Shown here one piece after another: positions 26,246 through 40,963 of a stretch of DNA of 64,000 bases (position 1 is the stretch's first letter; each line of letters starts with the position of its first letter). The notes under the pieces were generated by a model that made no database searches, was not told the DNA's origin, and worked only from the letters and a program-made list of their open reading frames with translations. The position numbers and the translations under genes are program-made. Source of the DNA: Ornithinimicrobium pratense (GTDB lineage: Bacteria; Actinomycetota; Actinomycetes; Actinomycetales; Dermatophilaceae). Location: positions 2,232,001 to 2,296,000 of the forward strand of contig NZ_CP044427.1 in NCBI RefSeq assembly GCF_008843165.1. The letters are read 5' to 3'.

Positions 26246-27457
26246 GTGATCACCATGGAGGACTGGGCGCTGATCAGGAGGCTGGCCGCCGAGGGCGTGC
26301 CGAAGGCCGCGATCGCCAGGAGGTTGGGCATCTCGAGGAACACGGTCGCTGCGGCCGTGGCTTCCGAGGGTCCACCGAAGTACGAACGAAGACCAGGGCC
26401 GACGTCGTTCACGCCGTACAAGGCGCGGGTGCGTGCGCTGTTGGCGGAGACCCCGGACATGCCCGCGACGGTGCTGGCTGAACGGGTCGGGTGGAGCGGC
26501 TCGATCCGCTGGTTCCGGGACAACGTCAACCGGGTCCGGGCTGACCACCGCCCGATCGACCCGGCCGACCGGTTGACGTGGACGGCCGGGGACGTGGCGC
26601 AGTGCGACCTGTGGTTCCCGCCGCGCAAGATCCTGCTCGAAGACGGCTCCCGGACCCTGCTTCCAGTGCTGGTGATGACCTGCGGGTACTCCAGGTTCAT
26701 GCTCGCCCGGATGATCCCGACCCGGAAGACACCTGACCTGCTGCTGGGGTCCTGGTCGCTGCTGGAGCAGCTGGGCCGTGTTCCGCGTCGGCTGATCTGG
26801 GACAACGAGCCCGGCATCGGACGCCGGAAGGTGACCGAGCCGGTGGCGGTGTTCGCTGGGACGCTGGCGACGCGGATCGTGCTGCTGCCGCCGAAGGACC
26901 CCGAGTCCAAGGGCATCGTGGAACGGCGCAACCGCTTTTTTGAGACCTCCTTCATGCCCGGGCGCCACTTTGAGTCCCCGGGCGACTTCAACGCCCAGTT
27001 CACCGACTGGCTGCTGACCGCGAACGCCCGGGTGGTGCGCACGATCAAGGCCCGTCCCGTGGACCTGCTGGGCGCGGACAAAGAGGCAATGTTGCCGTTG
27101 CCGCCGGCGGTGCTGCACCTGGGCTGGCGTAACCATGTCCGCCTGGGCCGGGACTACTACGTACGCATCGACACCAACGACTACTCCGTGGACCCCCGCG
27201 CCATCGGTGCCCGGGTCGACGTCGCTGCCGACCTTGATGTCGTCCGGGTCCGCCACGGTGGCCGCCTAGTGGCTGAACACCCGCGTCGGTGGGCCCGCGG
27301 CATGACCATCACCGACCCCGCTCACGTCGCCACCGCCGCGAAGCTTCGGCACGACTACCAACACCCCGCGACACCGGCGCCCGCCGACGACGGCATGGTG
27401 CGGGACCTGTCCGAGTACGACCGTGCGTTCGGCCTGGGCGAGGTGAGCCAGCCATGA
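26246..27457 (+). CDS. istA: IS21-family transposase IstA
   Basis: A 403-residue transposase. It opens with a helix-turn-helix (IRRLAAEGVPKAAIARRLGI, then SRNTVAAAV). The DDE core is visible as AGDVAQCDLWFPP, LIWDNEPGIG and PESKGIVERRNRFFE, followed by the C-terminal IstA domain. It cuts and joins DNA at the element ends with IstB help. GTG 26246 or ATG 26255 could start it. Its stop overlaps the istB ATG by four bases. Confidence 0.93.
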   Translation: MITMEDWALIRRLAAEGVPKAAIARRLGISRNTVAAAVASEGPPKYERRPGPTSFTPYKARVRALLAETPDMPATVLAERVGWSGSIRWFRDNVNRVRADHRPIDPADRLTWTAGDVAQCDLWFPPRKILLEDGSRTLLPVLVMTCGYSRFMLARMIPTRKTPDLLLGSWSLLEQLGRVPRRLIWDNEPGIGRRKVTEPVAVFAGTLATRIVLLPPKDPESKGIVERRNRFFETSFMPGRHFESPGDFNAQFTDWLLTANARVVRTIKARPVDLLGADKEAMLPLPPAVLHLGWRNHVRLGRDYYVRIDTNDYSVDPRAIGARVDVAADLDVVRVRHGGRLVAEHPRRWARGMTITDPAHVATAAKLRHDYQHPATPAPADDGMVRDLSEYDRAFGLGEVSQP

Positions 27458-28257
27458 CCCGCAAGACCACCTCCGCCACGACTGAGACCCTCAAGCAGAT
27501 CACCCACCTGGCCGCGGCGCTGAAAGCACCACGGATCACCGAGTCCGCCACCCGGCTGGCCGACCACGCCCGCGATGCCGGATGGACTCATGAGGACTAC
27601 CTGGCCGCCGTCCTGGAACGTGAGGTCGCCGCCCGCAACGCCTCCGGCGCACGGCTGCGGATCCGCGCCGCCGGCATGCCCGCGGCCAAGACGATCGAGG
27701 ACTTCGACTTCGACCACCAACCCGGTGCGCGCACCCCGATCCAGGCCCTGGCCTCCGGGGCGTACCTGGCCGAGCACCGCAACGTCGTCCTGCTCGGGCC
27801 ACCGGGCACCGGCAAGACCCACCTGGCCACCGCCCTCGGCGTCGCGGCCGCCCGGCAAGGCCACCGGGTCCTGTTCGCCACCGCCACCGACTGGGTCACC
27901 CGACTGACCGAGGCCCACGACCGCGGACGGCTCGCCGTTGAGCTGACCCGGCTGCGCCGCTACGGGCTGATCATCGTCGATGAGGTCGGCTACCTACCGT
28001 TCGACCAGGACGCAGCGAACCTCTTCTTCCAGCTCGTGTCCTCCCGGTACGAGCACGCCTCCCTCATCCTGACGTCCAACCTGCCTTTCTCCTCCTGGGC
28101 CGGCGTCTTCGGTGACCAGGTCGTCGCCGCGGCGATGATCGACCGCATCGTCCATCACGCCGACGTCATCGCCCTCAAAGGCGCCTCCTACCGACTGCGC
28201 GACCGCGGCGTGGAGACCCTACCCAGCATCAAAGCCGAGCAAGAATCCCTAGACTGA
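27454..28257 (+). CDS. istB: IS21-family helper ATPase IstB
   Basis: A 267-residue DnaC-like AAA+ ATPase. Walker A is LLGPPGTGKTHLATAL, Walker B is GLIIVDEVGYLPF, sensor 1 LILTSNLPF and sensor region MIDRIVHHADVIAL. It binds target DNA and directs the IstA transposase. The ATG overlaps the istA stop (ATGA), which indicates coupled translation. Confidence 0.94.
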   Translation: MTRKTTSATTETLKQITHLAAALKAPRITESATRLADHARDAGWTHEDYLAAVLEREVAARNASGARLRIRAAGMPAAKTIEDFDFDHQPGARTPIQALASGAYLAEHRNVVLLGPPGTGKTHLATALGVAAARQGHRVLFATATDWVTRLTEAHDRGRLAVELTRLRRYGLIIVDEVGYLPFDQDAANLFFQLVSSRYEHASLILTSNLPFSSWAGVFGDQVVAAAMIDRIVHHADVIALKGASYRLRDRGVETLPSIKAEQESLD

Positions 28258-32947: not shown

Positions 32948-33655
32948 TCACACGTCGTCCGAACTGCGGATCTCACCGTACGGCTCGTCATCGAAGCCAG
33001 CCCACCCCATGACCTTGTCTGTGGCTGCCTGAGTATCGAAGTGAACGAGGAGGGCCGCAACGACGCCGCCAGCCGGGCCGGCGATCATAGTGCCTGTCGT
33101 GACCTTGACGGCGGTCGCTATCCACCAGATGGTGAATAAGACGTAGCGGCGGATCCACCTACGCTCAGCGTCCGTGAGTCCGGCTGCTGTGAGCTGGTCA
33201 TCGATTGGCTTCGTGAAGTCGGGGCACGCGGCCTCGACCGCATACCAGGCCGAGTCGTCATCGAAGGCAACCGGTCCAGGTTCTGGAACTCCGTCGGGTA
33301 CCTCGACGCCAACCCGCTTGAGGGCGGACTCCGCTGTATGGCGGGCAACAGCGGCCACTGCTTGGTTGGTGAAGGCCGCGCCTGCCTTGTTCTGCGCGGT
33401 GATGCCGCGCATGACGGTGTCCATGATGGTGGGAGACATGGTCCGCAGTGATGCCTGGTGCTGCTCGGAGATACCGCGCAGGACCGCCTTGTTCTGCGCG
33501 GTGATGCCGCGCATGACGGTGTCCATGATGGTGGGAGACATGGTCCGCAGTGATGCCTGGTGCTGCTCGGAGATACCGCGCAGGACTGCCTCCATCTTGG
33601 GGTATTTGATGAACGACGGCTTGCCCCCGTTTAGAGGAGGATCTGTCTCAGTCAC
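32948..33655 (-). CDS. Membrane-associated helical protein with perfect 34-residue duplication
   Basis: A 235-residue protein from GTG 33655. Residues about 23-90 hold two identical copies of a 34-residue unit (AVLRGISEQHQASLRTMSPT, then IMDTVMRGITAQNK), the result of a 102-bp tandem duplication. A helical central region and two hydrophobic helices (RYVLFTIWWIATAVKVTTGT, then MIAGPAGGVVAALLVHF) follow. The protein would stay in frame with one or more copies. No family recognised. Its plan resembles the protein at 29513-30214. It lies in foreign DNA. Confidence 0.6.
   Translation of the reverse strand: MTETDPPLNGGKPSFIKYPKMEAVLRGISEQHQASLRTMSPTIMDTVMRGITAQNKAVLRGISEQHQASLRTMSPTIMDTVMRGITAQNKAGAAFTNQAVAAVARHTAESALKRVGVEVPDGVPEPGPVAFDDDSAWYAVEAACPDFTKPIDDQLTAAGLTDAERRWIRRYVLFTIWWIATAVKVTTGTMIAGPAGGVVAALLVHFDTQAATDKVMGWAGFDDEPYGEIRSSDDV
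33384..33587. repeat. 102-bp perfect tandem duplication inside a gene
   Basis: 33384-33485 and 33486-33587 are identical as read, both starting GCCTTGTTCTGCGCGGTG. A third partial copy follows only for about 10 bases with a mismatch (GACTGCC). The unit is a multiple of three. Confidence 0.92.
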
Positions 33656-35825: not shown

Positions 35826-36749
35826 ATGACAGGCATCGAGCCCGTGGTGGGGAAGATCGTCGAGACGGGAGTCCGAGCCGCCGAGGGTCAGACGAAAAGG
35901 ATCGCTGCTGCGAACAGTGAAACGGATCGAACGTTGCTGGAAGAAGCAAAGGGCGGCCCGGTGTTGGGGGCGGCTGCCAAGGCACACGCTCAGGCTATTG
36001 CCGTCCGAAAAGGCATCGTGTTAAAAGGTTGGCAGTGGCTAGGTCAATGGTTCGGCGTGTCGCAGGAGTATTTTGACTCAGAAACCTTCGCTGCCGACAT
36101 GGCAGAGCGCCTAAATGGTGTACCTGAAGATGACATAGTCACGCCTGAGCCAAGTGTTGCCGTACCGGCGATACAGGGACTCTCCTACTCTCTGAGCACG
36201 CCACAGTTGAAGGAAATGTATCTGCAATTGTTAGCCTCAGCGTCCGACGCGCGTCGTCGTGAAGACGCCCACCCGGCTTTTGCTGACATCATTCGCGAGC
36301 TCTCTCCTGACGAAGCGCACTTGCTGATTGACCTCCTGCCTACTCCCATTTGGCCGCTCTTCCGAATCGAGTGGCGAAATAAAGATACTTGGCACTTCCG
36401 GATTTTGGACAACCACCTGATGGACCTCAGATCACAGTCAGACCTATCTGTGACCACTGACGACAAACGACTCGCAGTTTGGATTGATAACTGGGTCCGT
36501 CTCGGGTTGGTTATTGCCGAGTATGACGTACGCATTGCCGATGATAATGCATATCAATTCTTGGACAATCATCCGCGTTACGCAGCGCGCCGAGCGGAGT
36601 ATGAAGACAGCGAGACTGATGAGTTAACGACTACCAATGGGCGCCTTGTTGTGACCGCGTTCGGGCAGGCGTTCTATTCTGTTGTGGAAGGCGCTCAACC
36701 GCGTGACGAGGATGGCGGCGAGGACTCGGTGTGGAAGCCGCCTAGTTGA
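35826..36749 (+). CDS. DUF4393 (Abi-alpha family) protein
   Basis: A 307-residue protein. VTPEPSVAVPAIQGLSYSLS, PQLKEMYLQLLASASDARRR and EDAHPAFADIIRELSPDEAH are the core of DUF4393, a family I recall as Abi-alpha (abortive-infection linked). The N-terminal 90 residues are charged and helical (EEAKGGPVLGAAAKAHAQA). Its base composition is clearly less GC-rich than the flanking core genes, a sign of transfer. It begins 40 bases after the cpaF remnant ends. A phage-defence role is inference. Confidence 0.75.
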   Translation: MTGIEPVVGKIVETGVRAAEGQTKRIAAANSETDRTLLEEAKGGPVLGAAAKAHAQAIAVRKGIVLKGWQWLGQWFGVSQEYFDSETFAADMAERLNGVPEDDIVTPEPSVAVPAIQGLSYSLSTPQLKEMYLQLLASASDARRREDAHPAFADIIRELSPDEAHLLIDLLPTPIWPLFRIEWRNKDTWHFRILDNHLMDLRSQSDLSVTTDDKRLAVWIDNWVRLGLVIAEYDVRIADDNAYQFLDNHPRYAARRAEYEDSETDELTTTNGRLVVTAFGQAFYSVVEGAQPRDEDGGEDSVWKPPS

Positions 36750-39503: not shown

Positions 39504-39680
39504 CCCCGCCGCCGCCTCGGCTCGACGGCTCACGTTGCGGCCCGCCAGTCCCTGGGCAGCGGTGGACCTGCCAGACCCGGTCACCGCACCAGACCAGTGC
39601 CGCCGGTCAACGTTGTCCACGGTGATCCTGTGCAGGCCGCGCCTTGACCCTCACCCAGGTCGAGACCTCAGCGTGGAGTC

Positions 39681-40688
39681 ATGACGACGGACCCCGAGCA
39701 GCTGCTCTCCATCGGTGAGCTCTCCCGTGCGAGCGGACTGACAGTGAGCGCGCTGCGCTTCTACGACGGCGCCCAGGTCCTCACACCTGCGTGGGTGGAC
39801 AGCTGGTCAGGCTACCGCCGCTACTCCCCCGGGCAGGTGCTGGAGGCCCGCATCCTCGCTGGGATGCGTCGGGTGCAGATGCCGGTGGCCGAGATGGCCG
39901 CCACGCTCGAGGCCCTCCGGCAGGGGGATCTGGACAGCGCCCGCGACCTGCTCTCGGCCCACCTGAGACGGCTCGAGGAGGGGCTGGATGACGCGCGCCG
40001 CCAGCTGGCGCAGCTGCATCACGCGCTGGCCGAGCCCATGTTCGGGAAGGCGATGGCCGGCGGGCCCCCCTCCCAGGTGGCTGCTCCCACTCTGCTCGCC
40101 CTGCTCGCTGCCGTGCGGCACGCGGTCGGCACCGACCCGCAGCTCCCGGCCCTCATGAGCGTGCTGGTCGAGGTGGGCGAGGAGCTGACGGTCGTGGCCA
40201 CGGACCGCTTCCGGATGGTGGTGGCCGGGCGCTGGCACCGGGCCGGCGCGGCAGAGCCACAGGTGGGATCGGTGCTGCTGCCGACGGGCGAGGTCGACCG
40301 GCTGACCACCTGGCTCTCGGGTCGGCACGGCTCCCTCACCCTGGCGGCTCAGGAGGAGCTGCTGGTCGTGCGCTCCGGGGAGGAGGAGCTGCGGCTGACA
40401 GGGCTGGACGAGGCCTATCCGGATTACCGCCGTGTCCTGGAGCACGGGGTTCAGCTGCGGCCGTTGCCCACGGAGCAGCTGCACGCCGCGCTCGACGGGG
40501 ACGACGTGGCGGTGAACCTGGGCGGCGTCCTGGTCGACCGCGGCTTCCTCTGGGATGCGGTGAGCAACGTCCCCGACGGCCAGGTGCTCCTGCCGGCCGA
40601 CGGCGTCATCGCACCCCTCGTCGTCCGTTCCCCCGGTGACCTTGACGTGGTCGCGCTCGTCATGCCGCTCGCTCCGGAACGCTCATGA
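39681..40688 (+). CDS. MerR-type regulator fused to sliding-clamp domains II and III
   Basis: A 335-residue protein. Residues 8-77 are a MerR helix-turn-helix and wing (LLSIGELSRASGLTVSALRF, then YDGAQVLTPAWVDSWSGYRR), then a coiled helix (about 85-118) as in MerR dimers. Residues about 135-255 follow the middle domain of the DNA polymerase III beta clamp: TVVATDRFRMVVAGRW, VLLPTGEVDRLTTWL and EAYPDYRRVLE. The rest ends ALVMPLA as in DnaN domain III. Domain I is replaced by the MerR part. It could sense DNA or a clamp partner; that is inference. GTGGAG precedes ATG 39681, and the stop overlaps the next ATG. Confidence 0.8.
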   Translation: MTTDPEQLLSIGELSRASGLTVSALRFYDGAQVLTPAWVDSWSGYRRYSPGQVLEARILAGMRRVQMPVAEMAATLEALRQGDLDSARDLLSAHLRRLEEGLDDARRQLAQLHHALAEPMFGKAMAGGPPSQVAAPTLLALLAAVRHAVGTDPQLPALMSVLVEVGEELTVVATDRFRMVVAGRWHRAGAAEPQVGSVLLPTGEVDRLTTWLSGRHGSLTLAAQEELLVVRSGEEELRLTGLDEAYPDYRRVLEHGVQLRPLPTEQLHAALDGDDVAVNLGGVLVDRGFLWDAVSNVPDGQVLLPADGVIAPLVVRSPGDLDVVALVMPLAPERS

Positions 40689-40963
40689 GCGTCCTGATGC
40701 ACCTGTGCCGCACGTGCGGGCACAGGGCTACGTCGCACTCGGGCGGGGACCGCGGTTACAGCGGGTGCCGTTGCTGCCTCGGCGATGGTGACGTCGATCC
40801 TCGGCCGGTGCTCATCGACACCTTCGCCAGCCCCTCCGGACGGTCTGAGCCGCTCTACCCGCCCGGGACCGTCTGGAACGCGGGCACCATGCACAAGCTC
40901 ACCCTCTGCGACTGTGCGGCGTGCGCGTCGGAGTATGGGCGGCTCACGGCGTTGTCCGGGTGA
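40685..40963 (+). CDS. Small Cys/His-rich protein, partner of the MerR-clamp gene
   Basis: A 92-residue protein. HLCRTCGHRATSHSGG and YSGCRCCLGDGD, then KLTLCDCAACASEYG, give seven or eight Cys and several His, enough for two metal sites. The ATG overlaps the stop of the MerR-clamp gene (ATGA), so both are translated from the same mRNA. No family is recognised. Confidence 0.65.
   Translation: MSVLMHLCRTCGHRATSHSGGDRGYSGCRCCLGDGDVDPRPVLIDTFASPSGRSEPLYPPGTVWNAGTMHKLTLCDCAACASEYGRLTALSG

Follow-up and report, generated by a model that had tools for sequence, protein, structure and literature searches.

A MerR-type regulator carrying sliding-clamp domains II and III in actinobacteria, a possible sensor of clamp-binding ligands

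The gene at 39681..40688 (+ strand) of the window (the whole stretch of DNA that was analyzed, 64,000 nucleotides from Ornithinimicrobium pratense) encodes a protein of 335 residues, here called MerR-clamp, in which a MerR DNA-binding domain is fused to domains II and III of the sliding clamp (DnaN) and replaces clamp domain I. Our best explanation, a tentative one, is that MerR-clamp acts as a TipA-like autoregulated sensor of clamp-binding ligands, probably natural products that block the clamp. The fuller version of this idea, which is slightly more tentative, is that the target of an antibiotic would have been turned into the sensor of that antibiotic, with decoy pockets as one outcome and, in Micromonospora, raised levels of the clamp and an exporter as others.

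The N-terminal winged helix-turn-helix (residues 9–77; 39705..39911, +) is recognized by two MerR profiles above their cut-offs, PF13411 (E 4.6e-7; 30.3 bits, cut-off 21.6) and PF00376 (E 5.3e-7; 29.8 bits, cut-off 28.2). It is followed by a long helix (residues 84–117; 39930..40031, +), seen in the secondary structure of the monomer model and presumed to be the dimer arm, a role that such a helix generally has in MerR proteins. Residues 131–254 (40071..40442, +) correspond to clamp domain II, as indicated by PF02767, TIGR00663, and the fold, and contain the pocket motifs ATDRFRM and YPDYRR. A shortened clamp domain III (residues 255–333; 40443..40679, +), which includes the pocket residues M328–P329, was assigned from the sequence alignment and from a fold alignment that extends to residue 332. 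The three clamp domains of the DnaN ring were not all found: in the fold comparison, residues 124–332 of the model match residues 121–366 of the clamp, that is, domains II and III only, and the TIGR00663 (DnaN) match, covering residues 131–254, scores 37.6 bits against a family cut-off of 137.65. Because domain I is missing, the protein is unlikely to form rings. The preliminary description of this DNA had read the gene as a MerR helix-turn-helix in place of DnaN domain I, followed by clamp domains II and III, and had suggested comparing a structure prediction with DnaN; the profiles and the predicted fold of the C-terminal part, which matches clamp domains II and III, bear this reading out. 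The fold matches of the model include the complex of the clamp with Gp168 (7evp), a phage clamp inhibitor. The genome also has a dnaN of its own besides the MerR-clamp gene. Since the window's MerR-clamp contains no Cys, thiol-based metal sensing by this regulator seems unlikely; across the family, between one and four Cys were counted in 70 of 94 proteins.

With the TipA class (TipAL/TipAS, SkgA), MerR-clamp shares a MerR DNA-binding domain, a coiled coil, a C-terminal effector domain, a putative operator in the promoter of its own gene, and a proposed mix of sensing and sequestration. It differs in its effector, a piece of clamp domains II–III rather than TipAS, which was absent from the Pfam matches of the regulator up to E 10 in a search whose HMMER filters drop weak matches. 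With DnaN, it shares the fold of domains II and III and the canonical binding pocket but lacks domain I, has a shortened domain III, and carries the added MerR domain. BmrR and EcmrR have a helix-turn-helix, a coiled coil, and a C-terminal ligand domain, as MerR-clamp does, and match the regulator in sequence over the N-terminal helix-turn-helix part only; their ligand domain is not known to be clamp-derived. Long-spacer promoters are a further shared feature (PMC9909328). MerR-clamp would follow ordinary MerR logic with an unusual sensor. The griselimycin and mycoplanecin biosynthetic clusters carry an extra dnaN, and the second DnaN encoded there (GriR/MypR) has in common with MerR-clamp a duplicated clamp sequence and a proposed link to clamp blockers; GriR and MypR, however, are described as DnaN-encoding self-resistance genes, not as regulators (PMC10817943). 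MerR-clamp is not a full-length DnaN, and no biosynthetic gene was found among the ten window genes scanned.

A putative MerR-type operator/promoter lies directly upstream of the regulator gene (39644..39674, +). It consists of a −35 element (TTGACC, 39644–39649), a 19-bp spacer with an imperfect dyad (39650–39668), and a −10-like element (CAGCGT, 39669–39674). Typical MerR targets have spacers of 19 to 20 bp (PMC9909328), and the spacer and dyad of the window's site fit this description. The ATG at 39681 begins 6 nt past the −10 element, so that the MerR-clamp transcript is probably leaderless. With up to 3 mismatches allowed, the pattern has no other match in the window and none in 100 shuffles. 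Among the 94 family loci, a strict pattern of 31 bases locates the site at 89 and, after correction of mis-called starts, at two more (L120 and L138), giving 91/94; as to the remaining three, L153 and L154 show a variant site by eye, and L081 starts at a contig end and lacks an upstream region. By comparison, the pattern occurred in 69 of 4700 windows of 250 nt placed at random in these loci, some of them overlapping the true site. In 27 chosen genomes, the site (up to 2 mismatches) was present in 22 of the 23 with the gene and in none of the 4 without a class match of the E 1e-35 type; the exception (G034) has the gene and the variant site listed above as L153. From its position, 39644..39674 would be the regulator's own target, which suggests autoregulation of merR-clamp.

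Elsewhere in the window's genome, clear sites were not found. Allowing up to 3 mismatches, the pattern matches 19 times and the reversed pattern 5 times, but the only match with 0 mismatches is at the MerR-clamp operon and the next best have 2; a general target elsewhere in this genome was therefore rejected. The one other match that starts TTGACCCTCGACC (1130086) lies inside an open frame of 290 residues on the opposite strand, and no promoter role was found for it. Weaker true sites may exist elsewhere in the genome, and the regulator and its Cys/His-rich partner (see below) appear to be the only clear targets in this organism. Of 81 Streptomyces genomes, 22 carry a single site (up to 1 mismatch), and merR-clamp sequence follows in 22/22. 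A gene opens from the site in 19 of these, and at the other three (L194 in G074, L377 in G697, and L390 in G714) the sequence consists of pieces without a single clear frame from the site, which may be broken copies or reflect errors in the assembly. Sites beyond the self site occurred in three members of the 27-genome set (G197, G156, and G249). The operator-like site L208 (G156:C1:200054; 2 mismatches) precedes a different MerR gene, whose effector looks GyrI-like by eye, and this makes operator sharing between MerR paralogues possible.

To examine the clamp-binding pocket, 16 published positions of the peptide pocket (PMC11139829) were mapped, with Arg152 and Val344 left out, and columns at least 90% identical in 38 DnaN sequences were compared (12 pocket and 100 non-pocket columns in domains II and III). 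Eighty family members keep 0.86 of the DnaN-invariant residues in the pocket versus 0.28 outside it, and the 14 window-type members keep 0.80 versus 0.23 (Mann–Whitney p 3.5e-6 over all 94, the columns not being independent). Several of the pocket columns adjoin in sequence, 30 of the 38 DnaN sequences are from Micromonospora, and fifteen non-pocket columns are likewise kept at more than 0.8. The window protein alone retains 7 of 12 pocket residues (0.58) versus 0.23 of the non-pocket residues; Asn320 is replaced by Asp and Arg365 by Ala. Taken at sequence level, the canonical clamp-binding pocket appears to be selectively kept in the family and weakened in the window protein, and because subsite II is altered, the ligand in the window's organism may differ. 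The earlier proposal that the clamp part serves as the sensor gains indirect support from this retention in the family, together with the MerR-type promoter.

A protein search in which 8000 candidates were scored yielded 328 relatives of MerR-clamp at E 1e-3 or better. The best 120 of these all have MerR Pfam domains, and all except P0009, P0015, P0018, and P0102 have PF02767; the closest named relatives among them are from Ornithinimicrobium. Full-length MerR-clamp is encoded in 15 of 58 related genomes, the weaker matches there being MerR-only or DnaN-only proteins. Across the class, 31 of the 394 genomes, belonging to 14 of 138 genera, have a match at E 1e-35, in a few cases a partial one. 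The 80 named family loci that were kept include Streptomyces, Kitasatospora, Micromonospora, Blastococcus, Pseudonocardia, relatives of Actinoplanes, and Ornithinimicrobium. Gene neighbors vary from genus to genus; conservation of the neighborhood across genera was rejected, since, the regulator aside, no neighbor cluster exceeds 10 of the 94 loci. In the window itself, a mostly lower-G+C stretch at about 24 to 37 kb contains an IS21-type transposase pair (26246–28257) and an Abi_alpha (abortive infection) gene (35826–36749, E 1.7e-46). An ORF at 32948–33595 (−) has an internal repeat of RGISEQHQASL-like units and no Pfam match at E 1e-3. No description of the MerR-clamp family was found in the literature searched, which left out most subscription journals.

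The gene for the partner (40685..40963, +; 92 residues) overlaps the regulator gene by 4 bp, and translational coupling of the two is likely. Twelve partner sequences share 8 invariant Cys and invariant His at positions 6, 13, 18, and 70. The gene occurs in 13 of the 58 related genomes, in 13/13 directly behind merR-clamp, and in none of the 43 genomes without merR-clamp; two merR-clamp genomes (G011 and G057) lack it (Fisher p 3e-11 for co-occurrence in the 58 genomes, a statistic that ignores relatedness). The small Cys-rich gene noted in the preliminary description is thus a real operon partner, and the conserved pair that it suggested searching for exists, but only in the taxonomic family of the window: among the 58 genomes searched, none turned up outside it. 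A large protein collection yielded 19 relatives, the nearest named one from Serinicoccus, and the partner therefore looks like a lineage-specific addition. It is plausible that this Cys/His-rich protein is a co-produced effector with putative metal-binding ability.

The extra sites in G249, whose nearest named loci are from Micromonospora, prompted a scan of that genus. The pattern (up to 2 mismatches) is present in 97 of 101 Micromonospora genomes, 90 of which have at least two sites, and the reversed pattern is present in none. Every one of the 96 genomes with a close orthologue of MerR-clamp (E 1.4e-78 or better) contains one or more sites, and the five without comprise four with zero sites (G455, G482, G501, and G523) and the draft genome G491 with three. 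The four genomes form one clade, to which G513 is sister, so the co-absence of gene and sites counts once. Among 73 site loci read, 29 precede merR-clamp, 18 lie between dnaA and dnaN, 12 precede a gene of the major facilitator superfamily (MFS), and 14 were unassigned by these references. The 18 dnaA–dnaN loci, from 17 genomes that were fetched because they had sites, point at dnaN from a distance of 689 to 704 bp; in G249, many sequences resembling a DnaA box (motif TTGTCCACA) were seen by eye in this region. At the MFS loci (12 genomes), the operator is 37 to 39 nt from the start of one MFS gene, whose product exceeds the PF07690 cut-off (3e-28) and resembles drug exporters below NCBIfam cut-offs.

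A weight matrix built from the 29 self sites alone was then run over the 1200 bp upstream of dnaN in 30 genomes chosen by hand, a sample that shares one genome with the 17 above. Scores of at least 18 at −689 to −704 were obtained in 20 of the 25 orthologue-bearing genomes, the top score among 50 shuffles per region being 12.2. Weaker scores were found at the matching place in G449 (15.0) and G465 (10.7). By the same measure, G149, G513, and G539 have no dnaN site despite having the orthologue, and the four genomes without a close gene have none, whereas draft G491, in which the gene was not found, scores 22.7 and has other sites as well. In 39 sequences with the site or a remnant of it, and with gaps counted as unconserved, conservation is 0.84 in the operator columns, 0.19 in the preceding 60 bp, and 0.77 in the following 60 bp of oriC. 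Two genomes have second dnaN copies (L369 in G449 and L370 in G475; 79% and 61% identical to the reference) with phage- or plasmid-like neighbors by eye; these were considered as possible targets and rejected, as neither carries the operator. The link between gene control and replication or repair that the preliminary description suggested as a possibility is not seen in the window's genome, where the 0-mismatch operator is confined to its own operon, but finds motif-level support in Micromonospora, where the operator is in the dnaA–dnaN intergenic region.

The 14 other Micromonospora loci comprise eight before genes for small TPR-like proteins (weak Pfam matches, below cut-offs, for the two tested), four before a YunG-like gene (assigned by a profile match at one locus and by sequence likeness at the rest), one before a further gene that looks MFS-like by eye, and L252, which fits none of these. 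For the remaining genera of the Micromonospora family, 47 loci were examined, a few of them in fact from Micromonospora, and 43 were readable. The site is followed by MFS relatives in G655, G617, and G549, by another MFS gene in G638, and by TPR-like genes at seven loci, not counting L327, a repeat of L364. The sole dnaN site among these 47 loci is from a Micromonospora genome, in a set made up of fetched sites and not of scanned oriC regions. The TPR-like proteins, of about 130 to 175 residues and with Pfam matches below cut-off in three tested, occur behind the operator in several genera (L227, L232, L250, L260, L265, L271, L274, L275, L349, L353, L354, L356, L361, L364, and L367). The sites before the YunG-like gene (L246, L256, L257, L263, and L362; PF24585 at E 1.8e-24 for L256, the other loci by likeness) are only operator-like, with a different −10 region and a distance of roughly 180 to 195 bp to the gene, and are perhaps the sites of another MerR protein.

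In MerR regulators, a ligand in the C-terminal domain reshapes the DNA-bound dimer, which leads to activation, as PMC9909328 also supports. In MerR-clamp, the best-retained part of this domain includes the pocket to which clamp partners and griselimycin bind. Applied to the present case, a MerR-clamp dimer would sit on the 19-bp spacer, and a ligand filling the clamp pocket would change its shape and switch on transcription by the usual MerR distortion of the DNA. The activated protein would raise its own amount and so would also act as a decoy for the ligand; TipA proteins are described as minimal autoregulated drug-resistance systems (PMC7762955). The likeliest ligands would be natural products that block DnaN in the same pocket, of the griselimycin or mycoplanecin type; phage or other foreign clamp-binding peptides would be an alternative. 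Griselimycin binds between clamp domains II and III, and mycobacterial resistance to it arose by amplification of a region with dnaN and ori (PMC5694481). In Micromonospora, the response would combine the decoy with more clamp and efflux, and this target set would look like a defense against a clamp blocker. More speculatively, initiation itself might be influenced as well, by MerR distortion of the DNA bordering oriC. Counting against this explanation, the operator is solely at merR-clamp at 22/22 Streptomyces sites, as is the clear one in the window's genome, and because these operators sit at merR-clamp itself, the dnaN link is not general. Nor does the drug model explain the TPR-like, YunG-like, and other genes behind the same operator type. 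The weakened pocket of the window protein, the Micromonospora genomes that depart from the pattern, and the second dnaN copies lacking an operator also weigh against it.

The dnaN-directed operator could belong to another MerR paralogue of the same specificity, with MerR-clamp controlling only itself. The genomes do contain other MerR-type matches, and similar sites precede other genes, including the different MerR gene in G156, but weights taken from the 29 self-operators alone give the dnaN site scores clearly higher than those of shuffled sequence in 20 of 25 genomes, and sites are lacking in the four genomes without a close orthologue, a point qualified by their being one clade and by G491 being contrary. 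On balance, we regard this reading as rather unlikely. A shade less likely is a sensor of clamp homeostasis, whose pocket would read free clamp-binding proteins (polymerases, clamp loader, and repair proteins) and turn on dnaN when the clamp is scarce or blocked. Retention of the pocket and the near-constant distance of the Micromonospora operator from dnaN, in the dnaA–dnaN region, would suit such a circuit, whereas the patchy spread of the gene at E 1e-35 is ill suited to a housekeeping function, the target set includes an MFS gene, Streptomyces has the self site only, and no dnaN site appeared in the loci read from other genera of the Micromonospora family, whose oriC regions were not scanned.

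It is improbable, in our judgment, that the clamp part is a structural leftover, serving as a dimer arm or an aid to DNA contact, with the true signal (for example, metal or redox) coming through the Cys-rich partner. The 8 invariant Cys of the partner and its tight operon linkage in the window's taxonomic family speak for such a role, and the selective retention of pocket residues, the restriction of the partner to that family in the 58 genomes, and the lack of Cys in the window's regulator, though not in most of its relatives, speak against it. More improbable still is a defense alarm that responds to clamp-binding proteins or peptides of foreign origin, for example phage replication inhibitors: the match to the clamp–Gp168 complex and the retained pocket agree with it, but Pfam and NCBIfam scans of a few putative targets revealed no defense family.

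If the preferred explanation, a sensor of clamp-binding ligands, is true, a replication factor now serves as a ligand sensor and, in one genus, regulates the gene from which it derives, at the replication origin. For an actinobacterial family without a described function in the literature searched, the analysis supplies a defined operator, a pocket, and a gene list, and its testable target prediction, that for Micromonospora, lies outside the window's own genus. MerR-clamp would then be a natural biosensor for clamp-blocking compounds, a current class of anti-tuberculosis target, and would both help to find clamp blockers not yet known and allow a direct test of the way in which the cell adjusts its clamp supply.
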